Shown here in pieces: positions 20,041 through 56,847 of a stretch of DNA of 64,000 nt (position 1 is the stretch's first letter; the number at the start of each line of letters is the position of its first letter). The notes beneath the pieces were generated by a model. That model ran no database searches and was not told the origin of the DNA. It saw only the letters and a list, made by a program, of their open reading frames with translations. This stretch comes from Bryoerythrophyllum caledonicum (taxonomy: Eukaryota; Streptophyta; Bryopsida; Pottiales; Pottiaceae). The translations under genes and the position numbers were made by a program. The stretch is from contig OZ020514.1 in assembly GCA_963971425.1 (NCBI GenBank), forward strand, positions 41,763,158-41,827,157. Reading direction: 5' to 3'.

Positions 20041-20344
20041 AGCCAAGTGCACTTTAGGTCAAATGGAGCTAAAGTGCTCAAGGGTACATTCACAATGCAC
20101 ATTTACCATCCATCCAAATAAAAATGAGCTTCAATGAAGCTAAATTACACGAGTGCAATGCAGCTCAACATCAAACCAAAATTGCCTAGGCAAAAAACAA
20201 CTCAATAGTGCAATAACTAGGAGGTGAGCATAAAATGCACTGTCAACAAGAGTGAGTAAGGAGCATCCCTCAAACCGTCATAAAGAATACGCTTTGCAAA
20301 GGTAGAATCATATGGATTCAACCGCAAAGACCGTGGAACTGAAC

Positions 20345-20610
20345 GAGCTCACTGTGGCGAAGGGGAGTTGACCCTATCGTGAATTGTCTCTCCAGCAACT
20401 GAGCTTTCAACAACTCCGTCGTCCATTGCCATGGTTGAATAATCCATGGTGGACTGCGTAGTTGCTGCAGAGTGCAACAAAAGCCCTTTACTCCGAAGGG
20501 AAAGAGCAAACTCCTTTGGGCCTAGCAAGGAATCCACGGATGCTCGACAATCATAGTCCCATAGAATTTTCAACCAAAGTGACGTGCATATACATGAGAA
20601 CAATAGATGA
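20345..20610 (-). pseudogene. HAD-type gene copy 1: C-terminal exon
   Basis: The frame reads LWLKILWDYDCRASVDSLLG, then HSAATTQSTMDYSTMAMDDG and ends NSPSPQ. It matches the minus-strand frame at 45577-45830 over most of its length (QDYNCCVWVESFLDAKEYAP, HSVATAQSTMNYSTMAVDEG). Conservation of two copies at protein level marks it as a real exon. It lies downstream of the phosphatase-like exon and is separated from it by an intron holding a palindrome at 20773. Confidence 0.6.
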
Positions 20611-21019
20611 AAATTCCAATCATTCAAAACAGGATGACATTCCATCAGGAGTAGATATCCAATCCGCACAACAAACAAAGTGGTGAAACATCTCGATTTG
20701 TATTATCAAAAAATACATATACACAAAAAATGATCCAACAAATTTTATACAATAGAGCTGTAGTCAATCGATACACTTTAGCTCTATCCAACCTAGAGTG
20801 TAATAGAGATCTAAGCGTTCCCAACGACATCAAGAGCGAAGATTCAGAGACGCTTGAATTGCGTTCTAGATAATTGCAGAGTGACGACACGTCTTCTGAT
20901 CATTATAGAACATCTCTCGGCCGGAGGGATGTTCGGCTTGGTAGTGCGTTAGACCACCCTAAAATAGATGAAGATCAAAGAGATATGGCATCATTTCCTC
21001 CAGCAGTACCGAATCCTCT

Positions 21020-21545
21020 CTTGCGTCATCGTGATTGTGAAACTATGATGGAAGTAGAAGGACGTTCTTTAGCAAATTGAGCATGTGCTTAATCGAGCTA
21101 TCGTCAATGACAAGCGTATTTGCCAAAGAATATTCACGACCCAACCTATTGAAGAGATGGTTTGATAACGTCTTCAAGAAGATGTCCTTTTGAGTGGCAA
21201 ATTCCTTCATGTAGATTGTTCTAGTACCGACTCTACGCTCGGAAATCCTATCGCAATTCTCCTGATCAAAGATACTTAGGGGGTACGGAGGACAATATTG
21301 AAAAACGATGTTTACATATCTACGAGGTTGAATATGTCATCACTGAACTCCAGATCGTGATGATGGCAAACTTAGACAACTTTGTGAGGAACTCAGCACA
21401 ATTTGGGCGCACTTGAACTTGTTTAGAGCGTACTTTTGTCAACAGCGTAGCAAAGTGTTTAGACATATCAAGGTTCTTGAATCCTTTGGCCTGCCACGCA
21501 GGCTCACACGTGCAAAGAATCCCATTTAGATCAAGCACAATATTT
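21020..21545 (-). pseudogene. FCP1/NIF-type HAD phosphatase domain, copy 1
   Basis: The reading IVLDLNGILC at about 21517-21545 matches HAD motif I of FCP1-like (NLI-interacting factor) phosphatases in a DLNG variant. VRPNCAEFLTKL and ITIWSSVM follow (motif II region). After a frameshift near 21320, LSIFDQENC, KDIFLKTLSN and TLVIDDSSIKHMLN (21089-21118; motif IV) follow. These enzymes remove phosphate from Ser in proteins such as the RNA polymerase II tail. In this copy the Asp pair of motif IV is intact, but there is a frameshift and a TAG where copy 2 has Trp. A stop also precedes motif I. Confidence 0.65.
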
Positions 21546-21779
21546 CACTGCCTGCCATGGGAATTTGATAGGACTCTAGGTATTTCTTCTAGATTATTGG
21601 GACCACTTATTGATGCCTCGCAGACTCGATTGAAAAATGCCAAGAAAACAAACAATATTATTACAGATTCATTAATAACGATAGTTCAACAGAACATAGG
21701 ATGGAATGAGCAAAACAGTGGTGGGGGCATCGAGGGGAGGTGGAGTGTAAAAAGTGTTAGAAAAATACCTCAAGAAAGT

Positions 21780-22020
21780 CATCGTCTTGCAGGAATTTGT
21801 TTGAGACCCCCATCGATCCCAACAAACCCTACATGTTGCCAAGGGGATCCAAGTGTCCCCCAACCATTTTGGAGCCCGGCTCCAAGACAAGAAAAGGTGG
21901 CTCTGAGATAGCAGAATCATGAATGACCTCTACTACGAGTATGATCGAAGCTTCGACGACCTCTTCTACAATTGGAATTGTAGTTAGGACGACCTCTTCT
22001 ATGACTAGGTGAGCGATCAC
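21780..22020 (-). pseudogene. HAD-type gene copy 1: N-terminal exon
   Basis: A frame from 22020 reads IEEVVLTTIPIVEEVVEAS, then LDPLGNM, stop, GLLGSMGVSNKFLQDDDFLE. It is acidic and hydrophobic and ends near a possible donor GAG|GTATTT. It lies upstream of the phosphatase motifs on the same strand. No copy is seen near 47 kb, so the assignment rests on position only. Confidence 0.35.
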
Positions 22021-22240
22021 GTCATGTCCAAAACTTTAATCAGGAAAGTTCAACAATTTCAAACTATGAGCTAATAGACACATAGGACACTGATACAAGG
22101 CAGATTTGTCAGATGTCAAGAAGTTTGGTTTTACTCGAGTTGAAGTGCTGAGGAAGCACTATAACATTTAAAAAAAAAGGGTGTACAAAATAAGACATCT
22201 TCAAAATGTTTTGTCTATATACAATCGGAACTACATCACA

Positions 22241-23342
22241 CTAACTTGACGATGAGCTTGGGACATCTTCGATAGATAAGGACCGAGCGGGCGACTTTGG
22301 AGGAGAAGAGGGGGAATTTGATGTGGATGGAGGAACAAGAAGTGATTGAGGCGTGATAGAGAAGGGCGAGGAACCAACGGGCTACAGCAGAAGAGAATCG
22401 TGGAGCTAAGTTCCACTCCCTTCTTCCGCGAAGAGGGGAGGCTGGGAGATCGCAACATTTACCGCAGGTGGTGTCGTGGCGACAATAGGCAACTTAGCGG
22501 CCATGAATCTCTCGAGCATGAGCATCATGTTGGCATGTCTCTACTTTTGGTCCCTCTTCACCTCTTCATCACGCCTCTCATGTAGGTTTCTCAGCTTGTG
22601 GCCACGCTGTGCTAACTGTTGCTCCATCAACCTCCGCTAGATGGCCTCCTCTTCAAGCTTCTTTTCAAGGGTGATTAAATTACTGTCATCTTGGGGATGC
22701 TTTCCAATGCTAACGAAGAGTAACCACTTGCGCTAGCGACCTTCCTCCTCTTAGATACAAGCCGAGCGGATGATCCGCCCAAGGTAAGAGGTGAATGAGG
22801 CTTGACCAAAATATCCAGCAAATCCAACTCTTGAAAGTCAAGTTCTTGAGGGGACAACCGCTGCCGCAAGGTACCGATTGTGTCCCTTGCTTCAAATTGA
22901 GTGTCACATTGAAATTCCGGGGGAGTGGCGTCATCGAAGTTGTTATGGGATTCGTCGTCCACATTGACCGTGCTGGAGCTTGGTCACACTCCAAAGGGGC
23001 TTCGGTCCACATCTTCCTCTTCATCGACGATGTGATCACTCAATTTTTCCTTCCCCTTGGCAACGACCTTGCCAAGATGCGAAAAGATCTTCTCGTTGAC
23101 GTGATATCCGCCAAAGACAAAATCGGCCATGTCTAGCATCAAAGCCATCTCTGCGACTTTGTCAAAGTCCGTCTCATCAGAATTGTGCCAGACGCATAAT
23201 GCCTCCAGATCTAACATCTGCATACGAATGGATTTGGACCGGTTGGACTTAACGTCAAGTCGAGCTAAAGTGAGGATGAAGGCATACAAATACCGCACGA
23301 CAATAATTGAAAATTCAAGGGATACAATGCGATTGTTGACTG
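22241..23342 (-). pseudogene. gene 1 (left copy): C-terminal exon
   Basis: The exon starts after TATAG at 23343. It reads VSLEFSIIVVRYLYAFILTL, then MLDLEALCVWHNSDETDFDK and FSHLGKVVAKGKEKLSDHIV. After a TGA at 22984 it continues in phase with an acidic linker, and a frameshift near 22680 leads to a helical Arg/Glu-rich segment (RRLMEQQLAQRGHKLRN). It ends in a Ser/Pro-rich tail at TAG 22241. Four or more in-frame stops show decay. The TGA at 22984 could come from CGA. The C-terminal half looks disordered and charged. The protein family is not known to me. Confidence 0.5.
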
Positions 23343-23506
23343 CTATACAAAAAGCATATATGAGTAAGCCGACACTTTAGCTCGAGTTGAGCTAAAGTAA
23401 TACTCTATGCATAGCAAAAGAAGGTACTCTAAAAAATAGTCCATGCAAGAGTCATAAAGAAATCTACAATTTAGCTCAACTCGAGCTAAAGTGCAGGTGG
23501 ACTTAC
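23343..23506 (-). other. 164-bp intron of gene 1 bracketed by two palindromes
   Basis: The donor GTG|GTAAGT lies at 23501-23506 and the acceptor TTTTTGTATAG at 23343-23353. Palindromes at 23467-23493 and 23373-23398 lie about 13 nt inside the donor and 29 nt inside the acceptor. Coding character ends and resumes exactly at these borders. Confidence 0.65.
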
Positions 23507-24853
23507 CACGTTGGCAATAAGTAATTTTGTCGTGCCGACCAGTTGGACAAAGACCTCCCCTCTCTTACAGATGAGTTTGAGGACCTTGATGAAGAACTCC
23601 ATCCTCAACTCGTTCATGTTCATCAAGTACGCAAGCTCATTGTGTTTGCAAAGCTTCGTCTACGACACATGCTCCGGAGCTTTGTAGTTCTTTCTCACAG
23701 CTGGAATTTGTGTGAGCCCTTTCTTGAAGAGGAAGAAGAGGCAAATAGGGTCCGCATCAAGGTTGTTCTTTGCGGAGTATCCTCTCAAGGGCTCGTTGTC
23801 GAAGAGAATGTACGTTGACTGTAGCACATCGTACAGATGGGACAAAGACAAGCCCATTGCAAATGCCTCCACTTGAAGAAGAGAGTACGCATCTCCGCAA
23901 ATGAAGAGCCAAGCTTGAAGGTCACTGGGGGGGGTGACCTTTGGATGCAAACATCGTCATGAACTCATCAAAGAACATCTTCTCTAAAGACGACTTGGCC
24001 TTCCTAGAGAATCCAAGAATGTTCCAGAAGTTGATGATCCCGAGATGCACGTTACAGCCTTGATTGCACCAGGAATCACAGGGCCACGTCTCAAGAAAAT
24101 TTGTCTGTGCCTTGTACGAATAAAAGTACAAGGCTCCCTGCGGTGGAACGAACTGCAACCAATTTTTGAAGAAGACTTTAAAGAATTCCTTTGCAAACGG
24201 AGAGAGATCCTCACATTTGTAGTTGCAAAACTGGATCTGCCTTGTGTTGGCGTAGTACAAATCCGATGGACCTCAATCCATGAAGACATGCTTAGAAGCC
24301 TTGCTAACATTGTAGTTCTTCTTAAGTTTCTTCTAGTTAGACCAATTGTATGCTCTAGCGCTGTTAAATAGGCCCAACTCCAGCTTAATGATGTGAAGCT
24401 CCATTCGAGCGACTTCCTTCCTCTTCCTCCGATTGACCCAGTCCCGGGCAGCATAGCAATCTCCGAGCACAAATACTGGCTATTTTACAACCACCTTAGA
24501 GTAAGGCAGCATCTGCGATGGCTCTGATTGATTGAGTATGTCTCTACATATTTTTGCGTGACCAGCCTCGGCATCCCATCCCTCATCGGGACCCAAGACT
24601 TTGCTTCCTTGAACTTAGTCATCGGCGTCAATTTGGAATTGACGTCGATGAGGTCGTTGTGCGCCGTCAAAGAGATGACCTCCTACCACAGCTTGAAGGT
24701 ATCCTCCAATGTAGTGATGATCTTCAACTTGTTCGTCAGCGTGAGCCCCTTAGCCTTTCCGGCTTTTTTGAGCTCTGGTTGATTCATTGCAACGTTGATC
24801 AAGGCAAACCATTCACAAACAGGGTTTAGAAATGGCTGTACATAACAAAAACA
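23507..24853 (-). pseudogene. gene 1 (left copy): central region
   Basis: After an acceptor TTATGTACAG near 24843 the frame reads NPVCEWFALINVAMNQPELK. A frameshift follows near 24535, then VFVLGDCYAARDWVNRRKRK, ARMELHIIKLELGLFNSA, VFMD-stop-GPSDLYYANTRQ and CEDLSPFAKEFFKVFFKNWL. Next come GALYFYSYKAQTNFLETWPC and HLGIINFWNILGF. A G8 run (23927-23934) causes a frameshift before AWLFICGDAYSLLQVEAFAM, ILFDNEPLRGYSAKNN and NELAYLMNMNELRMEFFIKV. MD-x-GPSDLYY and CGDAYSLLQVEAFAMG could be the two halves of a SAM-dependent methyltransferase fold, but no textbook motif is clear. The family is unknown to me. Confidence 0.5.
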
Positions 24854-25059
24854 CGGTTGAATAAGTTGATCATTATAGTATACTGAGTATCAAATCAATA
24901 AAAATCCAATAATTAAAATTTAGCTCGAGTCGAGCTAGCCTGCAACCGAAAAATATACAATGAAAACGATTCGAATCCGTATACAACACTATACAGATAC
25001 GACACATACTTGCACGTTACCTTAAGTCAAGCTAAAGTGCTCGAGCTTGATTTGAAAAT

Positions 25060-25640
25060 CTTATTTCGTACTTCTTGTCAATCACAGACTCCAATGTTGT
25101 TCTTCACCGTGATATGTGTGACCCTATAACGCCCGCTACAGGGTACTTCAGCATTAGTCTCACAGCGTAAATCCACAAAGCGCAAGCGCCGAGGACATTA
25201 GTTGCCTACGTAGACTTGAACTCAACCAAGCAATTTACGGGATAATAATACGCATAAATCTTTCTAAGCTTCTCCGGATCTAGCGTTCGTACAATGAAAC
25301 ACTGCCACATTTGGAAGTGCTTCCTGATTTGCTCAGGGACGTTGCCGTCTATCATCGCCTTTGATACTGCAACGCTATGTTGGCTGTTGATGATATAAAA
25401 GAGACAATCACCAATCTCCTCAACCTTTGATGGCATCTCATCAAGCTTTGACATGACGCATAGAGTATGCTTCTACGACTTGTCGGGCATTTCGATAAAA
25501 TAATGCATCAATTCTTTCATGCCTCTAGGTTCAAATGCATGGATTGTCAACTTTGGGGGTGCATTAAAGAGCCTCATGACGTCGAGCTCAACCGTCTTCT
25601 TTGTGCTTTCGTAGACAAAGCAGCCCTGACACTCCATCTA
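25060..25640 (-). pseudogene. gene 1 (left copy): possible ParB-like region
   Basis: Reading on from the N-terminal exon in the same phase gives MECQGCFVYESTKKTVELD, RLFNAPPKLTIHAFEPRGM, a TAG, and EIGDCLFYIINSQHSVAVSK. Then come RKHFQMWQCFIVRTLDPEKL, another TAG and ATNVLGACALWIYAVRLMLK. The YIINSQHSVAVSKAM block resembles the nucleotide-binding G-x-H/Q-x-R-type signature of ParB/sulfiredoxin-fold domains (usually DGQHR or similar). This is inference from one motif. An intron with palindromes at 25021 and 24917 follows. Confidence 0.4.
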
Positions 25641-26535
25641 GAATTTTTGGTATATTTCTTGAACGTTGTTGTAGTCAACTGTCTCTCCATACCCAAGCGC
25701 AGGAGGGAGCTCTCAGAGTGCGGAGGCCATGGAATTGGCCAACTCCTCGTCCGAGACAAGCATCGTCTTCTTTCTCAATGAGCTCTCCGACTTCTTGGTA
25801 GCAGAGCGCTTCTTGATAGGGGAAGCGGAGAGCGTGTTGCGTAGGGTGCTTCTACTTGTTCGTGCGCCTGATAATTGAACCGGTACCAAAGCTTGACTCA
25901 ACTCCTGGCTACTGGTCCCGGCCCCTGAAACTATAGAAACCAATGAAGGGCGCCTATCTCCAATTGTCTTTTCCTTCTCAAGAGCGGCAAAAGTATTTAT
26001 TCTGGATAGAATAACGCGGAGTTTATTCACTACAGCCTTTGCCTTTAGCAGCTGACCACTACTAGTCTCTCATTTCTTGAGTGAGATTTTGTGGTCGATC
26101 TAGGCCACTACTTCATCAAATTTAGACCCCCTAAGTGTATCGACAGAATCCTCGATAGAGAATGGAGATAGAATATTGTTCACTACAATAGTAAACATAT
26201 ATGGCTCTACGGACTCAGTGGTTGTCACTCAGGACAACTTAACGTGGTCGTTATCTTCGTGAACCACATCCGTAATTTTGATATTTTAGTTTATGTGCTG
26301 CGGGTCTGAGACATCAGTAGTATAGATCTGACCAAACACAAGATTATCCGTCCAAGGGGCTCAAAGAAGCGTCCACTTCGACGTCTTTGTTGGATCCTTG
26401 AGCCCCGAGCAATTCAAGTGGTTTTTGTCGTCTCCATTGTCATCATCTAGGTCAACTAGCTATAGAGGGAAGAAGTGTTGAGGCTAAGTCACAATCGTGT
26501 CCCTCTCATTTGTGCACCCATACAAAAAACGAGCA
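25641..26535 (-). pseudogene. gene 1 (left copy): N-terminal region
   Basis: The frame is preserved at protein level against 56910-57800 (plus). It shows DDDNGDD, HLNC-GLKDPTKTSKW, NLVFGQ, VEPYMFTIVVNNILSPFSIE, DTLRGSKFDEVVA, INTFAALEKEKTIGDRRP and a Ser/Arg-rich linker. Stops fall at different places in the two copies: here TGA or TAG in positions where the other copy has Trp or Gln, and the reverse. Both copies share one stop just before the DDDNGDD region, so decay began before the duplication or that site is non-coding. No known domain. Confidence 0.5.
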
Positions 26536-26587
26536 CAAGCATCAGATCTCTAAATTGATAATCCAAATATGCTGGAGAATGTACCCT

Positions 26588-27441
26588 TACACTCGAGTCG
26601 AGCTAAAGTGTATCAACTAAATCCGTATTTTCAAATTTATTATAGAACTACTTGAAGCGTGCAAAGAGCGGCTTTCGAGAGAAAGAGCACAAGATTAGCA
26701 ATCTGTGCCTAGGCTTGGAAAGGATTTCACCTAGAGATCGGATGAGGACCTTTGAAAAATTGGGTGCAACTAAGTTATCAAGTGCTCTTTAGCTCGACTT
26801 GAGCTAAAGTGCATCTAACATAACCGTTTTTTTTCAAGAATTCAATTGAGAACAAAAGAGCTACCTTCGAGCAAAAGAACACCAAATAAGATGACGTTGA
26901 GTAGTTTTGGAAACGACCGTAGGTGCAGTGCAAGTGAGGACCCCCGCAAAATTTCTTAGCGATATCTAATAGTGTACACTTTAATGGTCATATTCATTAT
27001 TTTTAGACAATTCCAGAGTTTTGAGACTTTTTGCCTATAATTTCAACACCTATTTTGAGGTAATTCATGCATTTTATTGACTTTCTAATTATAGATTATC
27101 CTCGAGTCAAGGATAAACTTTCCAATTATAATAAAAAATTCAATTAAAAATTTAATATTAATCGAGAAATCAATTACAAATGTAAGATCAGCATTAAATT
27201 GAGATTGTGAAAAGTCTCAATATATCAGATATGGCGTTTTTAGCTCAAGTCTAGATAAAGCGAGGTAAATTGTTGAGCGTATGATGCCTTTTAAACAATG
27301 TTTTTGACCTGATTTATTTTCAAGTCGAGACGGGTGTAAATTTTTATTCAAGGAGTAGTATCCACACTTTGGCTCCAGTTGAGCTAAAGTGTGCCAATTG
27401 CAAGAGCTTTGCCTATACTTTAGCTCGTATCGAGCTAAAGT
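26588..27441. repeat. palindrome cluster upstream of gene 1 (left copy)
   Basis: Five imperfect palindromes lie at 26588-26610, 26785-26811, 27237-27260, 27363-27393 and 27417-27441. The last is a perfect 25-mer with 11-bp arms ACTTTAGCTCG and CGAGCTAAAGT around TAT. The five correspond in order to those at 56823, 56623, 56425, 56290 and 56244 in the right arm. Confidence 0.85.
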
Positions 27442-30400
27442 GTAGCCAATAAAATTTTGTGTCAATTTTTCATTTGTCAAAATTGAGTTCGGAGTGAAGG
27501 TTTCGGGGTTTAGGTTTTAGGTGTCGGGTTTGGAGTTTTACCGTTCAGCCATTTTTGAACACTATTCAGCACCATGATTCCAAATTATAACTAGCGTTGT
27601 GCAACAATAACCACATTCCAAATTGTTAGCAACAAAAATTACTCATGAACCATGTTACAAACTCAATCATCTAATCACGGAAATAAACAAAGACACTAAC
27701 AAACAATATTGACAAAACAAAACAAACAGAAATATGGAAGAGAAAAAATGACGAGAAAACGTGCAATAATATAAATGCTCATATGAAAAGAAGTGAATAA
27801 AAAAGCTTAAACAAAAAAGCATGCGTAGTAACCCATCAATAAGTTTACAGACTGTAATGCAGACTCTGATGGGAATAAATAAAGAATCACAGACTATGCA
27901 CACAAACGTATGTGCTCTCATACACACACATGTGCAGACACACACCTCTGCACACACATGTGGGTACAAACAGAAATGAACACACAAATACATATAAAAC
28001 ACAAAAATATATGCCGACATAGACAGGATTCCGTACACAAGAAAGCACATACAAATTCTAAAAAAATAATAAACACAAAATGGAAACAAGAGCATACATA
28101 AAAGCACTCACACAAACACATAGAAAAACTTCACAAGTGAATCAGTAGCTATGATTGCAAGAGTTTATCTTTCAATATCTATGTGTAGTACTAGAACCAA
28201 AATTTGCCGTCACCCTTACAAAAAACCGCAAATTCTCCTTTTCAACTCCTGATCTTCGATCCGCGCAACTACGCCAATCTCGTCACACCTCAACACACAA
28301 GTCTTGTCACTGTTGTGGAGAATCAAGAGAACACGCTACACGCACAACAAAAATCACAAATAACCTAAAACGTGACTCTCTGGGTCGAACGGAAGAAACG
28401 AAAAGGAAATTATCCTATAGTCGCGTCGGACTTGTATGCAACCCTACACCTAAGATTGCGGACTTCATACTCTAATGCCGTGAGCGAGTAGGAACCTTCG
28501 GCTCCTCTTCGAACCAATAATACCTAGATGATACTCTCGGGCTACCTCACGCTCCCACTAGTGTAGTTTTTCAAAATCCTGCGATACCATGGTGATACTC
28601 TCATGGACCAAATTAGTTTTTAGAAAAATAATTTGCTTTGATATTACAGAAATTGTATAGAAACCGGGTTCCTACAAATTTACAATAGATTTTAGGATTT
28701 CATCAAATTTATGATTTGAAGATTCTACAACTAACATCTCACTTTTTAAATTTATTGATATGAAAAACCACACAAGGGTAATTGAATATTTTCAGTAATG
28801 AAATAGATTTAGACCTTGAACTAATATTATTTTACATTTTATACAAGTATATTTTCCAAGGAAACAACTCACAAAATCATTTTCAAAATTATGTTCAAGT
28901 ATTGATAGCATAAAGAACAAATATTTATATTTTCAAGTAGAAAATAGACCCCCACGTTTCAATCGATTTTCATCCTTGTGAATTTTGAATCTTTGGAGTA
29001 ATAGATAATGAAGCTTCAAAGTTCATATTATTTCAAGTCTTACATTGACTCTAACCAGAGTTATTGTAATGGAAATGCTATAATTTAGTTTATTAAAATA
29101 TTTAAAAATAAATAAACTCATGTATCTTAACTACTTTAGAATTGAGATCATTGCGTTCATAATTGGTTTGATATTTCTTTACTATTAATATTTCTTAACT
29201 ACTTTAGAATTTGGGATCTTTGCGTTCATAGTTCTTTAATGAGAAAACACTTACATTAACACAACTTATAAAAAAGTAAGTGTTGTTAACACTAAATACT
29301 ATTTTTATCTTTATGAGTAATGAAAATTTGTAAAATATTTCAATTATAAATAATTGGTATCCAATTGGAGCACAAAGAATGATTAATAGTAAAGAAATAT
29401 CAAACCAAAATTAATCTTCTTATATTAAGTTTTATAAAAGAGAATGTTGAAGGTATTATATAAATCCACGCTTCGCTAGTTATTGCAATTGATTTGCAGT
29501 GGTTGTATTAATTTACACTTTCCTTTTTGCATTAGGTACGTTTACATAGATTTTTTAATTGCTCATTTACCATTTCTCATTTCTGTTTCCAATTCATGTG
29601 TAGCCCATTTGTTCTTGGACCAATTTTGCGGTTTTCCATGTGAATAAGTTTCACCATTACGGTTTATCAATAATTATTGATTGTAATAATTATTACACCT
29701 CGTACCTCATATACACATATAATTGATTTATAGCTCTTATATATTATAGTAGAATATATAATTTTAATCCACCATGCCTATGACTTTGTACCTATGTCCA
29801 TAAATCCTTTCATTGCCTTCTCGTTTAAACATAATTAGAATTATTCTGCACATAAAACAAATGCTATACTGTTGTTGAGACTTGTAAGGTTGTTATTGTG
29901 TTCTGCATATAGAAGCTAAAATCTCAATTGATCATTCAAACCAATAAATGAATAGGATACTCAATGTTTGTAAATAGACTTTTAGCCGTTGGAATTTTAT
30001 TATTATAACTAGCAGTTGGCGCTTGCTTTGCAACGCATCAGTTCAACCATGTTAATGTAGTTTTTAAATCACAATTTATTTTTTAAAAAGGTAATAACCA
30101 TCTACATAATATACAAATATGTCTTTCAATCCTATGCATGAATTTTGGTGATATAATAGACTAGAATAGAAGAAGAAAGAACAGGTTTTAGATTTTCTGC
30201 ATTTAAACTTGGAATTTCAAAAATGTTTTGAACGTCAAATGTGTAATCACGAGTTTCAAATTTGTTTTGGATGAGCACAAATTGCAACACACATATGCAA
30301 ATTTGACACACCTAAAAACCGAAGATCCTAAATTTCAAAAGTACACATTAAATCACACAACAATCAACCGCGCAGTCAACCAAGCAGTCAACCGCACAGG

Positions 30401-32100: not shown

Positions 32101-32253
32101 ATAGATATGCTAACGACTTAGCTTGATTCAAGCGAAACTGTTGGATTGGAGAATGCCAATTGATCTTGTATCAAATTTTGCTATTATTTATTTTATTGCT
32201 GATTGCTAAGCCCCAGTCGTCATACACTGTCACGTTCCATATTGCTAATATAG

Positions 32254-32399: not shown

Positions 32400-32563
32400 C
32401 GTGTGGCTGAAAGTGATTTTGTATCATATCACGTTTTCCAGTCTTGTCTTATACCTTAGTTGTCATTGAGGTGAGATTTTCACTTCGTCTTCAACTATTT
32501 GGTTTTTCTTTTCCTCATACTATTTGTTCTGAAATATGTTTTTCCTTCCTCATATTGCAATCG

Positions 32564-45385: not shown

Positions 45386-45390
45386 AACAC

Positions 45391-46860: not shown

Positions 46861-46929
46861 GTTTTATCCAATAAAACAAATTAAAAGTGACATGGAGAGG
46901 GAGAGAGAGAGTAAAATATTAACCGAATC

Positions 46930-47226
46930 TTTTTTGACACTAGCATGATCATGCGACCAAGTTGGAAGTGTAAGGACATTCTTGGACAAATTTAGCATAG
47001 ACTGTATTGAGTTATTGTGAATGACAATAGTATTTGCCAAAGTATATTCACCACACAACCTATTAAAGAGATGATTCGACAACGTCTTCAACAAGATATC
47101 CTTCTGAATTCCAAGTTCTTTTATGTAGATTGTTCTACCACCATCATTAAACACCGTATTTGATATATAGGGAGATATCTTGTCTTCCAAAATAATATAG
47201 CTGTGCATTAGAGGTAAAGTGCCCAT
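46930..47226 (-). pseudogene. FCP1/NIF-type HAD domain, copy 2 (C-terminal half)
   Basis: The frame reads TIYIKELGIQKDILLKTLSN, HLFNRLCGEYTLANTIVIHN and NSIQSMLNLSKNVLTLPTWS, aligned with copy 1 (IYMKEFATQKDIFLKTLSN, TLVIDDSSIKHMLN). HAD motif IV Asp-Asp is changed to His-Asn, which would abolish metal binding. Copy 1 has the Asp pair but a stop where this copy has Trp. Motif I and the N-terminal half are missing. It lies in the same orientation as copy 1, 25.9 kb away. Confidence 0.6.
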
Positions 47227-47229
47227 CTA

Positions 47230-48069
47230 AATTCTACACTCTGGAATGTTTGATTTCTGTAATAAAGAGTTTCCATTAAATTGATAAATTATTTTCAAAA
47301 ATGAAAAACCTTAAAGTAATAGTTATTAGAGTAGACATTATATCACATATCATACTTTAGAAATATTTAGTAAGATAATTCATTATATTCACATATTTGA
47401 GGGTTTATTTAAGATTTTTAAAATAACACTATTCTCACAATTTGGCTTGATAGTAGGTAAACAATTGAATAATGTCACATCGTAACCAAGTGACAAATAC
47501 ATCAGAAGAAACACAAATCTACAATACAATGAATATAATTCCTCTTTTGCTATGTATTCCGTACAAACCAAAGATATGAGTTACACAACATATTAGTAGA
47601 AAATTGGGTGACCACATTCCACACACTTCATCTAGGTTCGAGCTAAAGTGTGCACCATATAATGCAACTGTAGTGAAAAAAATACCATACACACAAACAA
47701 ACTCGGCTTAAGCTAAAGTGCGCACGGCCATTATACTTCAAACCGGAATTATGAAAGGAAGATATAGGTAAAACGCCCCCGTAGAGGAGACAATTTACGA
47801 CGTTGTAATAATGAAAGACGAAAATCAAACTTACCATATTGACCGATACTCAAAACACAATTGAAGTAACACCATGCTAATATTTTTAATGTATTGATCT
47901 AAATGGTGTGCTAATTAATAGTGTATAGGAATGATTAGCATCCCAAATAGAAAGGATTGGAATATTGTCTCAAACAAATTAGACCCAAAAGACCTAACCA
48001 TACTACATGAAGTACTACTCATCACAATTTGCAATTGCATTGGTATAAAAGATTATAAATTTGGGGCTA
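47230..48069. other. spacer with two palindromes
   Basis: No gene is supported. Palindromes of the common family lie at 47622-47652 and 47699-47720. The right half GAGCTAAAGTGTG is kept better than the left. Confidence 0.5.
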
Positions 48070-50815
48070 TTACAATCTGGACAGAACTAGCGTAGCGAAA
48101 GACTCCTTTATGATCTCTATTTGCCTCCTTGAAATTTTTGTGGTTGGATAATTTTCTTTACCACGACCTTCATCTTCATTTTTCGTCCTTGATTCCCAAG
48201 CAGTAAAAAGGGAATCAATACTCTCCCACGACATGGCTCTTCCCTTCTCAACTGTCCATCAAAAGGTTGAAATATGTATCCTAGTCTTTATAGAAATGTT
48301 TAATATCCAAATCGCACGATATAGGACAGAAGAATTGGATCTAGACAGTGTTTGGCCTATTTGGATTCAAGTTTGGATCTAGTATTGCTCGGGCAATCTA
48401 AATTGGTTTAGGATCACCGTCATAGGGTTGCAATGCAACAAAGTACCTTGCAAAAAGATCAAGTCCAACTTGAAATGAAGGGGGGAGACGATCACGTCAT
48501 TGTCCAACAAAATGGTCATCTTCAGCATACTCTTTGCGAACATCATCCTTTGTTGTGAACTCATCTTCAACGGCATGGGCAATTCTTGTCGTTGGCTAAA
48601 AGCCCTATTCCAATAAAATTGGGGTTTCTATGGGAAGAGTAAGAGCATCTCTAACACCTCGCTAGTAATAGGATAGTGGCTAAAAACGTCTCTAGGCTCC
48701 AATCAACTCTTGCGATGATTGCTTTCAATGATCAATGAATCCTAATAGTCCCTTCAGCTCTTGCGGGAGGTGCTGCATCGAAGAATGTTGCAATGCATCA
48801 GGTTCTCCACAAGGCCACAATGACCGCCTTTCAAAATCCTCCTTCCACATTCTAATGCCAATGCCTTCTCCCCCCTTTGGAAGCCAATCCTCGTCACAAC
48901 AAAAGAATTTATACTTCATCAGTGGGCATCACTAGATGCGTCGAGATAAAACTTGAACTCGTAAGCTTTTGTATGACCTTGCAAAGCTTCACTACTATCC
49001 CCAATTGAATTCCCAAAGAACTTCTTAAAGTCCAAAACTTCTTGAATGAGGTGCGGGATTGTGGGAGCTGCCTCATTTGTCATGGACTTCATAAATAGAG
49101 GGATTGTTGGAATACTCTCCTTCTTTAACGCCATGCTTCAATGAACAAACAATGTATCTATATCGTCGTACGTGTGACCAACTAGCATGTAATTGACATA
49201 TACCTTGCAGAAGATGCATTTTGCAATAAGAAGAGACCAAAAACAAAAAAACAACTTATTTTTGTTATCACATACTATGTTGTCCATTTGCACATTCAGT
49301 ACAAGAGGCAATGGCCTCCTTAGAATGGATATATTTGGAATCTAGCCTAAAGGATCCAATCAAACCTCTGCACCACATAACATCGCTTCATACAATTGAT
49401 GGAAACAAGATTTCGGAAAGTGTTGCTGAAACGACGATTTAGGAGGCTTCTCAAGGTTGCGTAAAAGTTTTTTAAACAACTCGACAGTGTAATTGGCATT
49501 GTGAGACTAAAGATCGAGGCCGTAATGCGCGTAGCACTGGTCTACATGACTATATAAGAGCATGCCACTAACTGCAAGAGGCAACTTCATAAGACCATCT
49601 AAGTGTTTTGTCTTGTATGAAAAGACTGGTGAGGCAGTCTTTGAGTGGTCCATCTTATCATGTATAATAGTTACAACCTCTTGAGGCAACAATTTTGATT
49701 GAAAACGGTTTAGATAGTACAAGTCTCGATGTGCAAAAGCAAAATCAATGCGAACCTGCATTTTCTTTTGCCACAACAATGATGCTTGCATTCCACGTTG
49801 AATCAACTTCTTTAGGTCCTCATATTTTTCATAAGTAGAACACCCAGCAACATTGTCTCCTCTCTTCTTAAGTGAGAACTCAAGGAAGCTCACGCGTTGA
49901 ATCTTATTCAAGTTTGAGGTTGAGATTGAGGGCAACCCACAATCAGCGAGGTGCTCATCTAGTAGCGGAATTTGATCCTTCCACTTAAAACTTGGAGAGA
50001 GGACCTTTGCAACAACCTTTTTGCCAGACAGAAGGACACGAGACTTATGAGGCATGTAGTCGGCATGCCTATAAGGATGGCCCCAAGCGTAGCAGTAGCT
50101 ATAATGATATGACTTCTAGGCTTTCGCAAACCAGTGTTGCCGTGGTGTTGCGCTTCGTACCAAACAACAACGTCTTTGGCATTGCAATAGAAAGTAATCA
50201 AATTCACTCTCATATATTTCATCCATGCAAACGAGAAAACGTCTATCCCCTCCAAAGTCACAACCTTCCTACCTGCAAGGTTTTTGTGAAAATGTTTATG
50301 AACGTCAAGTTTGATATGATTTCTAAACTGCACAATAGTCTCATCATACATGCGCGTCGGCATAATTGTAATTTTTGCCCTAGGATAGTGCTGGAAACAA
50401 TTTTGGCTGCAACAATTATTGTCCACTACAGCATTGATGGACTATAGCGTCATGAGGAATTCACGTCTCCAAGAAATAGGAGGACGGATAATCCTAGGGG
50501 GCTTGTTGTTGGACCGCATGCTTCCATCTAAAGGTCTATTTTGCTCATGCATCCACGTCTCGTAATTGACTCAAAAAATGTGATTCAAGAGACTAACCCC
50601 ATTTAAGTAGACTTGTTGAATAGGCCAAGTTTTGAACAAGTACCTCCATTCATTACAAGCTTCATCCTCAACAAATATACTCGACACTTGGACCACAACT
50701 TCTGATTTGTGGAGGAGACCAAAAGAACCTACAATTGCGCTTGACGTCAAATTGCTAACCAACCCCTCTGCGAAGCGAAGTGAAAAACTCACCTCTATGA
50801 CAACTAAGGTATGAG
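48070..50815 (-). pseudogene. gene 2 (right copy): DUF7869-like transposase-related protein
   Basis: Fragments in order are: EWRYLFKTWPIQQVYLNGVS; NNCCSQNCFQHYPRAKITIM; RNHIKLDVHKHFHKNLAGRK; NTGLRKPRSHIIIATATLG; FKWKDQIPLLDEHLADCGLP; ASPVFSYKTKHLDGLMKLPL; LVLNVQMDNIVCDNKNKLFF; LVGHTYDDIDTLF; and FKFYLDASSDAH. Then come MKYKFFCCDEDWLPKGGEGI, a Trp-rich tail and ESFATLVLSRL at TAA 48070. The QMDN-x4-DNKNK and VGHT-x-DDID blocks resemble the DUF7869 domain of plant element proteins, thought to be RNase H-fold transposases. Frameshifts near 50045, 49500 and 48915 and several stops disable it. The N-terminal codons present in the left copy are deleted here. Confidence 0.65.
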
Positions 50816-50864
50816 AGGAGATCGGAGAAGGAGATATGATACATAATCAATATCAGTCAGGCGG

Positions 50865-51163
50865 TTTAGCTCGAGTCGAGCTAAGTTGACATTGAAATAA
50901 AGTGGTTGAAATATAACTCAACTATTTCCGCTACAAGGTTATAATTCAGCAAGCCAAGTCCGAAGTTATACCTTCAAACAAATTGTTTAGTTGAAAATTT
51001 AGCTCGACTCGAGCAAAATTGTATTAGCAATATGAAACATGACAGTTTGTTAGGACCAAGGCTTAGCAATTAGCAACAAAATAAATAAAAGCAAAGTTTG
51101 AGACAAGATCAATTGTCATGATCCTATTCAAGGTTAACAATTTAGCTCGACTCCAGCTAAACT
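50865..51163. repeat. palindromes upstream of gene 2 (right copy)
   Basis: TTTAGCTCGAGTCGAGCTAAG (50865-50885) and further copies at 50997-51021 and 51139-51163 match the three in the left arm in order. Confidence 0.8.
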
Positions 51164-53257
51164 GTAGGCCCGTAAATCTCGGCGACATTTACGGTTGTCA
51201 AACATACTTCCTGTGTTGAGGACGATACAAATGATATGAATTCCTTGCAGAACTAAATTGAGCAACCGTTACTACTAGTACACAAGTGAAATACTTCTAC
51301 TAAAGGAATTTTGCACAAAAGCATGAAGTCAAATCCTACTGAGCAAATTCACGAAACCTACGAAATTTGGAGAACTAAATTTTTGTACTTGCTTGATAAC
51401 GGAAATGTTGAAATTATTAGAAGCGCATATGCGGTGGCCAGCCTCAACTTAAGCTCAACCTTGCTCTGCTCAACTTTGCGTTGTTCTACCTCTTATGAGC
51501 TTTCCATCAGTTGCGCGCATACACAATTAAAATTGTAGATGCAAGAAAAGGTGCAAAGAAGCGAGGGTTGTGAAGTTGTGGGACGCATGCTTGATCAATC
51601 CAGCTTGACGTAGAGTCTAGAAATGGGCGCGGTCGCAATATTTGGAAATCCCTAAATACTTGGTTTTGAGCATTCTAGCGGAAAAATCCTACAACTACTT
51701 TCAATACAAATTTGCTAATTAGCGTTCCCAACGACATACCCAAAATAGAATAGGTCCGTTAAATGATTCTACATCATAAGGCCATTCTACTTATGGTAAG
51801 TGTTAGGTTTAAAATTTAGGTTTAGATTTAGGCTGAGGTTTAGGGTTTATGGTTTAGGATTTAGGGTTAAGGGTTTAGGATTAACGACATCTAGCTTCAA
51901 ATACAGTGTCCAAGGTAACATGTTAACTGTTTAAATGGTGTTTTTTCACAAGGTGTAAACATGATTAGGACAATACAGTGGAGGTGTTTAAATGTGTGAA
52001 TTAAAATACTGAGAAATTCTGCACATTTTTTGTATTACAATATGAATACGGGACATGTTTGTAATGTTGAAAGGTAGGTTGGAGTGAAATATGTTGTATT
52101 ACTTTGCAATTGTATAGCGTATTTACTAATTGGTAATCGATCTAGATTTTATGAATTTTAATATGTTTTGTAGCAACATCAATTGTGGTGTATAAAAGGT
52201 TTATATTAATATATGTATTCAACATTTTACAATGTATATTGTTACATTTGTCTGCGCCTTTGTTTATAGTATTTATTTTGCAATGCCACATTTTAAGGAT
52301 TTTGGATTATATATATAGCACAAGTAATCTAGTATCTAATAAATATGAAATTAATGGTAGTTGGAGTGAATTCTTTTTTGCTTGATTTTATAGTGATACA
52401 ATGTTATAAATATATCTTTCTTTAATTCATAAAATATAGTTTTTTTAAATGGCAATCGTGCAATAAAATAAAGACCAATATCATTTCTACTATTTTATAA
52501 TAATAAAATTGCAAAGATTAAGGTTCTATTTACAAACATTGAGTATTTCATTTATTTATTGTTTAGAATGATCAATTAAGATTTTATCTTCAATTAGCAC
52601 AAATCACAATAACAACCTTAAAAGATAATCAATAGTATAGCATTTATTTAATGTGCTAAATAATTCTAGTTGTGTTTAAACGAGAAGGCAATGAAAGCAT
52701 TTATGGACATAGGTACAAAGTCATAGGCATGGTGGATTATAATTATATATTCTACTATAATATATAAGAGCCATAAATCAATTATATGTGTATATGAGGT
52801 ACGAGGTGTAATAATTGTTGTAGTCAATATTTATTGATAAACCGTAATGGTGAAACTTATTCACATGAAAAGCTACAAAATTGGTCCGAGATTAATTGGG
52901 TTACACCACAATTAGAAAAAAATTCTAAAAGTGTTAAATAAGCAATTAAAAAATATATCTGATTGTACCTAAAGCAAAAAAAGTGTAAATTCAATACAAC
53001 CACTGAAATTCAAAACTCATAATCTAACAAAGTGTGAATTCAGATAATACTATTAGCATTCTCTTTCAGAAAAAAATAACATAATATGTTGAGTTTTGGT
53101 TTGATATTTTTTTACTATTAATCATTCTTTGTATTGCAATTGGTTTCTAATCATTCATAATAGAAATATTTTACAATTTTTTTAATATACATTAAACTAA
53201 AAATGGTATTTAGTGTTAACTGCACTAACTTGTTTATAACTGCTACTATAAGTTTTT
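51164..53257. other. AT-rich intergenic region of the right arm
   Basis: No gene is seen. It contains a TTTAGGG-like tract at 51806-51890 and matches 29.3-32.1 kb in reverse complement. Confidence 0.5.
51806..51890 (+). repeat. degenerate TTTAGGG repeats
   Basis: About ten TTTAGGG, TTTAGG or TTTAGGT units occur in tandem, resembling plant telomere repeats. The left-arm partner at 31390-31430 is further decayed (ACCAAA units). Confidence 0.6.
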
Positions 53258-54190
53258 CCTCTTTAACCCCTAAAGGACCAAATCTCCTTCAAGGGGATTT
53301 TTGATTTTGGGCAAGTTCCCAAAATTCGAAAAAAAATCCTTTTTCTCTAAACTTTTTATTCTAGACTGCCTCTGATAAGAGCTTCGTGAAGATATTTTTA
53401 TTTTATTTTTTGAATTTGTGATTTGAATGTTAGTACCACTTAAAGCCAAAAGTGGGGACACCATGCACCTCCAAATATTTTGACAAAAGTTTCTATTGAC
53501 ATTGATATTTTTCACACATATAAAGAATATTTCCTTTCTAGGACATTTTCAAAAAAAAAATTTGTCTTTAGTGTAAAAAGGCATTTTATTCCAAGTCAAA
53601 CATTTTCACACATTGTCGGGCAACGGGGGGAAAAAAATTCATCGGTTTTACATAAAACCTAGGAATCTTCATATTTTTCACTTTTTTTTTTTTCAACAAC
53701 AATATGTGGTGAAAACCATCTTATTGACCGTTTGGATTATCATTCGAATACAAACGTAGTTCTCTAAAAAATAAAATGAGAAATGGCAATTTTGAACCTC
53801 CACTCCTTGCACACTTGTTTTGAATATGCTACACCCTTTTCTTACCTCTAAAACTTGGTGTATAACATCATGTTTAAGAAAATGGTAAAATATTTAGACC
53901 TTGTACAACGCAAAAATTTGATACAAAGTGAAGTCAAAGTTTGCTGATCTACTCAATGTAGGGAAGAAAATGAACCATTGTTTTGACTTTAAACACTAAA
54001 ATCTATCAATCCGTGCGATGGATTGCAACCAAATTTTTTTGGAATGTTTATATATAAGTCTATTTAAAGATCTTACTATTAAAAATCCAAAATTCACTTT
54101 AAAATGTGATTTTCATTTCTCTTTTTGGGAGTGGCAGTTTTGGACTGGTTTTAGAGCGAAAGTGGTTATGGTTCTTTAGAGGTTAAAAGG
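53258..54190. mobile_element. 0.93-kb non-autonomous DNA element inserted in the right arm
   Basis: The left end CCTCTTTAACCCCTAAAGG (53258) and the right end, read in reverse complement as CCTTTTAACCTCTAAAGAACC (54190), form imperfect terminal inverted repeats of about 22 bp. The element is absent from the left arm, where the flanks are joined near 29245-29255. The flanks are T-runs, so a target duplication (TTTTT) is possible but not certain. It has no coding capacity. Confidence 0.55.
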
Positions 54191-55359
54191 TTTTTTTATG
54201 AACTAAATACATGATTTCAATTCTAAAGCAGTTAAAAAATATGTGTTTATTCTTTAAAAAATATTTTTTAAAACCAAATTATAGCATTTTCATAACAATA
54301 ACTCTCGTTAGAATCAATGTAAGATTTGTAATATTATGAATTTGGGAACTATCATTAACTATCCCTCAAAAGATTCAAAAATTCACTAGGATGAAAACTG
54401 ATTGTTACGTGTCGAGTTTGTTTTTTGCCTAAATATACAAATATTCGTTGTTTACGCTCTCTGTAATAGAACAGAATTCCAAAAATGATTTTTGTGAGTT
54501 TTTTTTATGGAAAATACATTTGAATGAAATGTGAAATAATATTATTTTTACGGGTCTAAATCTATTTCATTACCAAAATATTCATTTACCTGTGTGTGTT
54601 TTTTCATATTAGTAAGATGTTAGCTTAAGAATCTTTAAATCATAAAAGTGAGGTAATTCTAAAATCTATTGTAGAAAGCCGGTCTTCTATACAATTATTA
54701 TGATATCAAATCAAGGTAGTTTCTAAACAAAATTTGGTTCATGAGCATATGACTTCAGTATTGCATCACTTTAGATAAATATAGTAGAGGGAGGCGTAAG
54801 AAAGCCCAAGGATATCATCCACGTGTTACCGGTTCGAGTATAAGCTCAAGGTTTCCACTCGAGCATGACTTTAGGGTATGAAGTCAGCGATATTAGGTAT
54901 AGTGTTTGTATGCAAGTCCCAAGCGACTCTGAGAACTTCCTCTTTTCTTTTCTTTCATTCGACCCAAAGAGCCGCGTGTTAGAATTTTTGTGTCCTTTCT
55001 TGTGGGTGTAGCCATCAACGTCATTGTTGTTGTGCACGTAGGGTTTTGATTTGTGTTGCTTATATAGAATTCGGAAGACGGAGAGGTTTTTCTTCACGGA
55101 TTCTCTCATTCCTACGCAAAGTGAAAGGAAGTGCATGCGAGGGAAGAAGTTGTGTGAAGAGGTGTTGACGTGAGAAATTAAGGTAAAGAAGACAAAGTCC
55201 AGGAGTTTATTATTGTCTGAAGAGGAGGAGTTGTGGTTTTTTTCAAGGGTGAAACAAATTTGGAAGGAGTGATGCGCATGAGTATTGATAAGGTAAATTG
55301 TTGTAATCATAACCTATTGATTTAGTTTGGGATGAAATTTATGAAATTTTTCTTTGTGA

Positions 55360-55680
55360 CAGTGTTTGTATGTATGTTTTTGTTTCCATTCTTGTGTATT
55401 TTGGTTTTTTAGAATTTGTCTATGCTTGCATTTGTATGTAGTCAAGTCATTGTGTGCTTGTTTTATGTGTTTTATTTGTGTTTGTGTGTTTGTGTGTTTA
55501 TTTCTGTTTGTACGCACATGTGTGTGTGCATAGGTGTGTGTACATGTGTGTGTGTGCACAAGGGTGAGTGAGTGAATATGTGTGTGTGAGAGTACATGTG
55601 TGTATGTGAGCACTTACGCCTTTGTGAGCATACACGTTTGTATGGGAACACATCTGTGTGTGCATGGTTTGTGAATCTTC
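55360..55680. repeat. TG-rich tract of the right arm
   Basis: (TG)n and TGTGTGCA-like units are the complement of the CA-rich tract at 27895-28110. Frames here are low-complexity. Confidence 0.7.
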
Positions 55681-56243
55681 ATTTATTCCTGTTAGAGTCT
55701 ACATTATAATCTGTACAGCTTATTATTTGGGTTACTACGCCTGCTTTTTAGTTAAAGCTTTTATATGCACTTCTTTTCATGTAAACATTTCTATTCGTTC
55801 AAGTTTGGTTTTGTTTTGTTTTCATTTGTTCTCTTCTATGTTTTCTGTACTTCTAATAGAAAGTGGTGTTTTTTTTAATTGTCTTTGTCACTTTCCTTTG
55901 TGCCATGTGTGGTTTTGATTTTTATTATGTATAATGGTGTTTCTGTTCGTTTTGTTTTGTCAGTATTGAATGTTAGTGTGTTTGTTTATTTTAATGATTA
56001 GATGTTTGAGTTTGTAACATGGTTTATGATTTATTTTGTGTTGACAGTTTGGAATGTGGTTATTCTTGTAGGGCGCTAGTTATTATTTGCAATAACAATG
56101 CTCAATAGTGTTCAGACATGGCTAAACAGTAAAACACCAAACCCTACACCTAAAACCTAAACCTCGAAACCTTAACTCTGAACCTTTTTTTGACGAATGA
56201 AAACTTGACACAAATTTGGATGAATTTGTAGGGTATTGGCTAT

Positions 56244-56847
56244 ACTTTAGCTCACCTCGAGCTAAAGTGTGGGCAAAGCTCCGACAATCAGCAGACTTCA
56301 GCTCAACTAGAGGTAATGTGTGGGTACCACTCTCTATACAAAAATTGGCATCCGTCTCGACCCAAAAATACCTCACTAGTTGAAAACATTGTCAAAAAAG
56401 GCATCATAAGTTCACCCATCTACTACACTTTTCCTCGACCCAAACTAAAGTGTACACGATAAGACATCGCTGAGTAGTTTTGCAGACGTCCTCACCTACA
56501 TTGCAAGTGAGGTCCTTTCCAAAAAGTGCGTAGCGTCATCTATTTTGGTGCTCTATGGTTCGAAAGTAGCTCTTTGGTTTCCAATTGCATTCTTGAATAT
56601 GTAAATAAATAAATTTAGTTGATGTATTTTAGCTTAACTCGAGCTTATATGTACATGATAAGGTGACTTTGCTTAGTTTTGAAAAAGTCCTTATCTAAAC
56701 TCCAAGTAAGATCCTTTTTAAATTTGGGCCAATTTGCTTATCTTGTGCTTTTTCTCTTAAAAGCCGCCCTTTTGCTTCCAATTACATTATGGTGGGAATT
56801 CAAATTACTGATTAAGTTGATGCACTTTAGCTCAACTTGAGCTAAAG
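56244..56847. repeat. palindrome cluster upstream of gene 1 (right copy)
   Basis: Copies lie at 56244-56268 (ACTTTAGCTCA-CC-TCGAGCTAAAGT type), 56290-56320, 56425-56453, 56623-56653 and 56823-56847. They are colinear with the left-arm cluster although the spacers have diverged. Confidence 0.85.

Follow-up and report, generated by a model that had tools for sequence, protein, structure and literature searches.

How transposons escape silencing in plants is an open question, for which few worked examples exist. The closest described case is the anti-silencing system of VANDAL transposons and their VANC proteins in Arabidopsis (PMC5735166, PMC10398659); in those parts of PMC5735166 that were used here, the VANC21 signal is described as stronger in introns, between genes and in the non-coding terminal parts, with motifs arranged as tandem repeats. 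The present analysis concerns a stretch of 64,000 nucleotides from the moss Bryoerythrophyllum caledonicum (GCA_963971425.1, contig OZ020514.1, positions 41,763,158 to 41,827,157; hereafter the window) and a dispersed 31-bp palindrome that belongs to a transposon family bounded by terminal inverted repeats (TIRs). The data speak for a site with two-fold symmetry that is specific to the transposon, operates at the DNA level and has been under selection. The explanation that we favour, at about an even chance of being right, is that the palindromes are cis-acting double-stranded DNA sites of this family, bound by a dimeric, most likely element-encoded protein and having a VANC-like role in expression or hypomethylation.

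The window has a GC content of 39 %, and its transposon genes, an array of the TTTAGGG type and a match to 5S rRNA are suggestive of plant nuclear DNA. The palindrome is composed of 11-base arms and a constant 5-base centre, mostly RASTY (CACTTTAGCTC-RASTY-GAGCTAAAGTG), together with two outer pairs, and the whole 31-bp site can be described as two 15-bp arms around a single central base. When the 22 arm positions were scored with gaps of 0–12, 21 places in the window reached at least 18/22, against none across the 20 first-order Markov sequences that served as background, and 26 places reached at least 17/22 (shuffle mean 0.15, maximum 1); at 15/22 or more, the 45 places found against 17.9 expected represent a small excess. 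Of these 26 places, 24 belong to the final set of 29 sites, all located within 20.0–56.9 kb, whereas 47193 and 54135 have other gaps and were excluded. The five remaining sites score below 17 (27236, 47694 and 56625 at 16, 32114 at 15, and 45424 by a by-eye reading), and the assignment of 32114 rests mainly on its position. A covariance model was trained on the 29 window sites, which therefore match it by construction; it detected nothing at E <1 in the window outside 20–57 kb (best 1.2) and gave marginal matches inside this range at 39340 (E 0.036), 46445 (0.12) and 20119 (0.16). A sequence-only reading of the window had reported about 30 dispersed copies of the palindrome, with none in 1–20 kb or 57–64 kb, and arm scoring and the covariance model bear out both statements. 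Twenty-seven of the 28 positions that it listed fall on a site with the fixed 5-base centre (starts off by at most 8 bp), while 46449 is weak (model E 0.12), and two sites that it had missed, 32068 and 32114, bring the set to 29. The window sites are not independent, since eight site pairs are paralogues within two old inverted copies. The palindrome was also encountered in IMG/VR on two contigs (L001, 65 % GC, and L002, 38 % GC) at one place each, with no second site at 15/22 or more on either, and these matches were read as chance.

Genome scans covered the assembly of 437 Mb in 894 contigs, with the reversed, uncomplemented pattern as a control. The strict palindrome pattern matched 2573 times on each strand and the control pattern not once, and the isolated strict matches that were examined (only six, chosen by eye among those listed) all lie inside element copies. 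The genome-wide density check proposed in the sequence-only reading was thus run and did not refute its claim. Two regions, C1:7661940-7680937 and C1:12808345-12827263, share 97.2 % identity over 19 kb, with a sharp end of homology, and the element, the ends of which are AACACC, terminates in a 29-bp TIR, AACACCATATTCGTTATAWTGGGAGATTT. Allowing three mismatches, this TIR was found at 1291 + 1280 places in the genome (control 0). Identical 4-bp flanks, which constitute a target site duplication (TSD), were observed in 11 of 13 TIR pairs picked from the listed ends, the exceptions being 7661940 and 13680992. Among the 100 listed TIR ends of the 2571 places, all with 0 mismatches and on one contig, 19 inward-facing neighbouring pairs lie less than 60 kb apart, with 14 spanning 16–23 kb and none shorter. 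Long alignments between the compared copies are mostly 83–97 % identical. The element is an 18–19 kb TIR transposon family that exhibits the TIRs and the fixed-length TSD of a cut-and-paste DNA transposon. A host gene cluster and a giant-virus insertion had been considered and were dropped when the TIRs and TSDs were found; three protein queries against viral contigs found no relatives.

The gene blocks of the element comprise a NIF-type phosphatase (E 6.9e-18), a block designated G2 and a DUF7869 gene. The last is a clear member of Pfam PF25273 (E 3.1e-37; 1.3e-42 in another copy), listed by Pfam as a domain of unknown function, and in the reference copy it has in-frame stops. Among 10 reference-copy frames compared with Pfam, only NIF and DUF7869 pass the cut-offs, and no MULE domain was detected.

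Sites were grouped into classes across nine regions of one contig, in which 286 sites at 15/22 or more formed 44 clusters at homologous positions; 37 clusters with at least four copies and one site of 17/22 were kept. The reference copy contains 35 sites at 17/22 or more, none of which lies in an exon block (the blocks, which are approximate and were set by eye from open frames, make up 42 % of its length). Single sites are found between open frames, in presumed introns, within or beside the NIF and G2 genes, while a 52-bp-period array lies upstream of G2 and a 47-bp-period array upstream of the DUF7869 gene; the spacer holds site pairs 69 bp apart, and at the right end the sites are 72–73 bp apart. 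The size of the arrays varies among copies, with 4–10 sites in the 52-bp array and 3–9 in the 47-bp array in copies where it was found (sites under 16/22 are ignored in these counts), and their spacing almost always amounts to one unit or two. In one 47-bp array (L015:4803-5110, element about 14460-14770), some linkers are nearly palindromic, of the tccttcgaagga type, and dyads may alternate along the array. An introner-like origin, prompted by sites seemingly near splice sites, was rejected, given that sites are also present in spacers and arrays.

Between eight regions and the reference copy, the sites are 92.3 % identical, compared with 85.5 % for flanks, 91.7 % for exons and 91.4 % for other sequence. 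In the four more diverged regions, which were chosen after the eight-region identities had been seen, identity is 0.876–0.899 for sites, 0.757–0.790 for flanks and 0.839–0.904 for exons. Because array sites can be mis-assigned between copies, the comparison was restricted to 20 non-array sites with enough aligned bases, which in the four diverged copies show an identity of 0.899 against 0.793 for their flanks (bootstrap difference 0.065–0.147). Identity is 0.82–1.00 at pairs 1–14, 0.70 at the unpaired central base and 0.70–0.80 from pair 15 outward, and thus falls to background at pair 15; conservation above flanks is strong at intron and upstream sites. The sites were presumably selected while the lineage was active. 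Self-comparison of the window revealed old inverted copies at 25641-33515 and 49965-57786, 73–84 % identical in pieces, as well as smaller paralogous pieces, and eight of the nine palindromes of the former recur at the matching place in the latter. In this pair the sites are 76.1 % identical and the flanks 77.3 %, and 76 % of randomly drawn windows attain the value of the sites. Since the window sites have drifted as fast as their flanks, the window copies are read as dead, and their palindromes are relics of a decayed element.

The symmetry of the arms was analysed both in the window and between site classes. In the window alone, with one row per site (20 rows), pairs 11–15 covary (61/100 vs 49.5, p 0.001; 63/100 vs 52.0, p 0.0009, with the other paralogue chosen), and pairs 1–10 do not (145/200 vs 146.6). 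The proposal that compensating changes keep the symmetry consequently stands for window pairs 11–15, and clearly so between site classes genome-wide, but not for window pairs 1–10. Across the 37 site classes, pairs 11–15 are paired in 151 of 185 cases, against 110.6 in shuffles (standard deviation (sd) 4.9), and the pair types are varied both at pair 11 (C-G 18, G-C 8, A-T 2, T-A 2) and at pair 15 (C-G 12, G-C 8, T-A 6, A-T 1). Pairs 2 (29/37 vs 22.4) and 14 (26 vs 18.5) also covary, pair 16 is no better than chance (8/37 vs 9.4), and the core pairs 3–10 are little varied across classes. As arrays share ancestry, arrays and related pairs were collapsed to 17 groups, which still gave 61.4/85 vs 45.6 (sd 3.2; means of 30 draws); three groups (14954, 15032 and 18595) lack most outer pairs. 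Genome-wide, with the centre GASTC, the symmetric form CAC..GTG occurs at 1114 places and the mixed form CAC..CTG at 97 + 113, and pair 11 in the fetched sites scoring 17/22 or more (249 in all) is C-G 111 times, G-C 39 times, G-G 21 times and C-C 6 times. CpG deamination as the source of centre changes is plausible for relics, in which pairs 2 and 3 vary independently; it was ruled out as the full cause, since it cannot yield T-A and C-G at pair 2 or the types seen at pairs 11 and 15. The evidence favours selection for symmetry of the DNA, acting in the active lineage, over RNA hairpins, arm repair or mobile palindromes.

If the sites are bound by protein as proposed above, a putative dimeric DNA-binding protein, most likely the product of G2, NIF or DUF7869, would occupy them along the non-coding length of the element. 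Its most likely role would be to protect the element from host silencing by maintaining its expression or hypomethylation, the task that VANC proteins perform in VANDAL transposons, and dead copies would lose the constraint, with decay of their sites as in the window. Both the proposed binding by an element protein and the proposed role in expression or anti-silencing are based on site placement and on the VANC precedent. A number of observations weigh against this explanation. No DNA-binding protein was identified among the element's products: the three G2 frames have no Pfam match over the cut-off (the matches below it include HTH_Tnp_Tc3_2 at E 0.093, and at 0.0083 in the relic), and sequence searches returned no PDB relative for the longest G2 frame or for a 525-aa DUF7869 frame. 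The palindrome was present at 15/22 or more in none of the 12 best-scoring DUF7869 loci elsewhere in the genome (3.6 kb each), and in none of three 6-kb stretches upstream of other DUF7869 genes, whereas four are present in the corresponding span of the reference copy; the site is therefore not part of the DUF7869 gene as such. Seven of the 20 non-array sites, located in the spacer and at the right end, are below their flanks (3) or at most 0.05 above them (4), the whole region around these seven being conserved. The observed/expected ratio of CpG is only slightly higher in sites (1.03) than elsewhere (0.90). At the right end (element about 18250-18600), G.U pairs outnumber A.C pairs by 20 to 4 on the presumed sense strand, and an RNA role might exist there. 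When copies of one and the same site are compared, paired changes show no excess over expectation (16 against 13.6, sd 3.0, with 436 one-sided changes; region R7660, a near-duplicate, was left out), so that the symmetry appears to have been established in the active lineage without being restored in resident copies. Finally, a homodimer tolerating any base at pair 11 would not be expected to force agreement of the arms.

This last point makes arm covariation a puzzle: protein half-sites need not agree at any-base positions, yet here they do, and plain protein binding therefore does not fully explain the covariation, for which folded DNA and a strongly coupled dimer are two ways to account. A stronger proposal, which we put forward tentatively, is that pairing itself is selected along an element-long series of 31-bp palindromes, where a folded or strictly two-fold symmetric unit might serve as a distributed address for the element's own anti-silencing or assembly protein. 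We know of no cis-element selected for pairing along the length of a transposon; no transposon cis-element with selected arm pairing was found in the literature searched, and the listed literature matches to 10–11-base strings of the palindrome concern unrelated subjects. Recognition of folded DNA as a structure, in the form of cruciforms or of single-strand hairpins during replication, transcription or transposition, would agree with the way in which freely varying positions covary between the arms, with the occurrence of every base-pair type at both pair 11 and pair 15, with the lack of excess pairing at pair 16 and with the absence of an overall strand preference, as expected for DNA; the perfect consensus is predicted (with RNA parameters) to form a 14-bp stem and a 3-base loop. 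The low variation of core pairs 3–10, however, indicates that the sequence as such matters too, many copies contain mismatched pairs, and this alternative appears quite unlikely. Binding by a transposase or accessory protein in the service of transposition (synapsis, end selection) is a serious alternative, albeit an unlikely one. Subterminal motifs have this function in CACTA and Harbinger elements, in which subterminal clustering is the rule, and sites do occur towards both ends of the element described here (637; 18252-18582). The lack of TIR pairs under 16 kb among the 19 indicates that short internal-deletion derivatives are not prominent, which is a weak argument in the same direction, drawn from 100 of 2571 places. 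Nevertheless, most sites lie far inside the element, in presumed introns and mid-element arrays, and the outermost kept sites are about 300–640 bases from the TIRs. The arrays upstream of G2 and of the DUF7869 gene would also suit an origin of the sites as host transcription-factor targets recruited for expression of the element genes, but introns and spacers carry sites too, and such targets would be expected at host genes as well, whereas the six isolated matches examined were all in element copies; we regard this origin as improbable.

Template switching at quasi-palindromes is a mechanism that copies one arm onto the other, and it would give covariation with neither protein nor RNA and with no function; since paired changes within site classes are not in excess and conservation above the flanks would be left unexplained, mutational symmetry alone has only a slim chance of being correct. 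Of the three readings offered from the sequence alone, protein-binding sites of the element, RNA hairpins and small mobile palindromes, the first is the best supported, as a prediction consistent with one family, fixed positions, avoidance of exon blocks and conservation; the other two were not supported. Sites in presumed introns and upstream of genes are probably transcribed, and could act as hairpins in introns or untranslated regions. Such action predicts more G.U than A.C on the sense strand, an excess that is mostly not seen: with the orientation of array, spacer and right end assumed, the counts are 26:26 on the NIF/G2 side, 15:17 in the 52-bp array and 16:14 in the spacer, so that A.C is about as common as G.U in three of five groups, and only the right end and, by a slight lean (39:26), the DUF7869 side depart from this. 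A role of the palindromes in RNA is thus very improbable. It is scarcely credible that the palindromes are tiny mobile elements resembling the mobile palindromes of organelles, although they are dispersed, palindromic and located in non-coding DNA. Their positions are homologous in the fetched copies (nine regions), equal 4-base words lie directly outside none of the 35 sites (only this length was compared), the site 32112, present in copy 1 only, looks like a local duplication or loss, and an extra palindrome in copy R13152 is the product of a deletion that brought two known sites together.

The genome abounds in DUF7869, with 150 scored matches of 3611 candidates, and the large gene family suggests several recently active transposon families. 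Many places elsewhere in the genome, of whichever family, carry DUF7869 open frames of 1066–1087 aa. Upstream of another DUF7869 gene, at L064:2359, 3531 and 5407, a different palindrome, GAGGGGTCGAGGCCTCGACCCCTC, was observed in three copies, two of them perfect, which is possibly a parallel system or merely a larger repeat. A palindrome of their own in other DUF7869 families was thus seen in one of three stretches (L064), but inside a larger repeat with near-identical flanks, and it was not counted as support. In the open-licence literature, neither DUF7869 by name nor the combination of NLI interacting factor, DNA transposon and terminal inverted repeat was found; the element gives DUF7869 a context. 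Because the family is abundant (>2500 TIR places; copies mostly 83–97 % alike), tests of binding, methylation and mobility are practical.

The relic pieces in the window were mapped by blastn onto copy C1:12808345-12827263, with 70–75 % identity, and are listed together with the palindrome sites in the table. Relic copy 1 begins with a decayed left TIR at 19418 (22/29), its NIF gene is recognised at E 1.9e-7, and its DUF7869 gene is cut at about 33515, where the repeat 33517-34403 begins. In relic copy 2, with its left TIR at 44696, element 930-1809 aligns in three pieces at 45611-47142. The DUF7869 match of relic copy 3, at 48922-49137 (72 aa), has an E of 0.0014, under Pfam's cut-off. An inversion of 18259-49964 as the source of the window repeats was dropped, as 18259-19150/33517-34403 is a separate repeat and copy 3 continues through the DUF7869 gene.

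Table. Relic transposon pieces and palindrome sites in the window (window coordinates)
Feature	Position	Strand	Remarks
Relic copy 1, left part (element 1-7199)	19418..26612	+	74.7% over 7271 columns; NIF gene (-), G2 (-)
Relic copy 1, DUF7869 gene start (element 15111-16061)	32554..33510	+	73.3%
Relic copy 2, left TIR and NIF gene	44696..47142	+	TIR 27/29; element 930-1809 aligned
Relic copy 3, DUF7869 gene towards right end (element 18039-15251)	47985..50779	-	74.4%
Relic copy 3, first G2 exon block (element 7096-6212)	56923..57803	-	73.1%
Palindrome site	20048..20078	.	by position, element class about 650
Palindrome site	20772..20802	.	by position, class about 1368, NIF gene
Palindrome site	23244..23274	.	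by position, class about 3822, presumed G2 intron
Palindrome site	23371..23401	.	by position, class about 3947, presumed G2 intron
Palindrome site	23465..23495	.	by position, class about 4034, presumed G2 intron
Palindrome site	24914..24944	.	by position, class about 5517, presumed G2 intron
Palindrome site	25011..25041	.	by position, class about 5614, presumed G2 intron
Palindrome site	26582..26612	.	by position, class about 7184, upstream of G2; paralogue of 56821
Palindrome site	26783..26813	.	upstream of G2; paralogue of 56623
Palindrome site	27234..27264	.	upstream of G2; apparently split by ~260-bp insertion in copy 1; paralogue of 56424
Palindrome site	27363..27393	.	paralogue of 56292
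Palindrome site	27414..27444	.	paralogue of 56241
Palindrome site	32066..32096	.	upstream of DUF7869 gene; paralogue of 51136
Weak palindrome site (15/22)	32112..32142	.	copy 1 only
Palindrome site	32249..32279	.	paralogue of 50993
Palindrome site	32373..32403	.	paralogue of 50860
Palindrome site	45388..45418	.	relic copy 2; by position, class about 650-718
Palindrome site	45422..45452	.	relic copy 2
Palindrome site	45914..45944	.	relic copy 2; by position, class about 1368
Palindrome site	47622..47652	.	relic copy 3 right end; extrapolated position, class about 18410
Palindrome site	47692..47722	.	relic copy 3 right end; extrapolated position, class about 18337
Palindrome site	50860..50890	.	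upstream of DUF7869 gene, copy 3
Palindrome site	50993..51023	.	copy 3
Palindrome site	51136..51166	.	copy 3
Palindrome site	56241..56271	.	upstream of G2, copy 3
Palindrome site	56292..56322	.	copy 3
Palindrome site	56424..56454	.	copy 3; about 199-bp repeat spacing
Palindrome site	56623..56653	.	copy 3; about 199-bp repeat spacing
Palindrome site	56821..56851	.	copy 3

The window contains several other features. The two copies of the 0.9-kb repeat (18259-19150 and 33517-34403) are 81 % identical, and one of them abuts the point at which relic copy 1 stops inside the DUF7869 gene. At 26979-27239, an AT-rich insertion of about 260 bp, with TTTA on either side, seems to split a palindrome of relic copy 1, and the 5S rRNA match (46220-46339, Rfam 73 bits) lies within relic copy 2, beside a half-palindrome at 46154. 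A separate PIF/Harbinger-like element occupies 35704-37674, with DDE_Tnp_4 in the frames 35888-36403 and, below the cut-off, 36407-36769, and with a Myb/SANT-like frame at 37393-37674; the Harbinger frames lie outside the relic pieces. A 283-bp unit forms two tandem repeats at 62114-62691 (95–96 % identity), and C-rich minisatellites with related CGTCC-containing units are found at 1818-1977, 3217-3391 and 6281-6329.

Among known systems, the mobile palindromes of organelles (GC clusters and double-hairpin elements), as far as the portions of the sources used here describe them, are likewise short, dispersed and located in non-coding DNA; here, in contrast, the palindromes are part of a 437-Mb genome assembly, occupy homologous positions inside one transposon and show no sign of independent movement. 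The subterminal repeats of CACTA elements (bound by TNPA) and of PIF/Harbinger elements (bound by a Myb-like protein) offer a possible analogy in that many short motif copies, in both orientations, are bound by an element protein, but those repeats cluster next to the TIRs, whereas the sites described here extend over presumed introns and into the central part of the element. PIF/Harbinger elements have a TSD of 3 bp, compared with 4 bp in this family, and neither a DDE_Tnp_4 nor a Myb-like domain is present in the 10 element frames. With respect to DUF7869-bearing sequences (PF25273), the element gene is a member, and the 12 best other loci lack the palindrome within 3.6 kb.

The comparison with VANDAL and VANC draws on those parts of PMC5735166 and PMC10398659 that were used here. 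The VANC21 motif is the 9-mer YAGTATTAY, and VANC-type motifs are short (8–9 bases) and non-palindromic, whereas the site described here is a 31-bp palindrome with covarying arms; the word "palindrome" is absent from the main texts of both papers. VANDAL elements encode a MULE transposase (VANA), which was not detected in the 10 reference-copy frames, where the genes are NIF, G2 and DUF7869. The element is not filed as a VANC system because no MULE domain was detected in these frames and its motif is of another type, a separation drawn from domain content and motif type. The likeness lies in a multi-gene plant DNA transposon that carries a short family-specific motif in introns, intergenic and terminal parts, confined to the non-coding parts of the family (no exon block holds any of the 35 sites, and the six isolated matches examined all lie in copies), and in tandem arrays that expand and contract, as the 52-bp and 47-bp arrays differ in size between copies. 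A second family with dense sites of its own in introns and spacers would suggest that distributed self-addressing evolved more than once.

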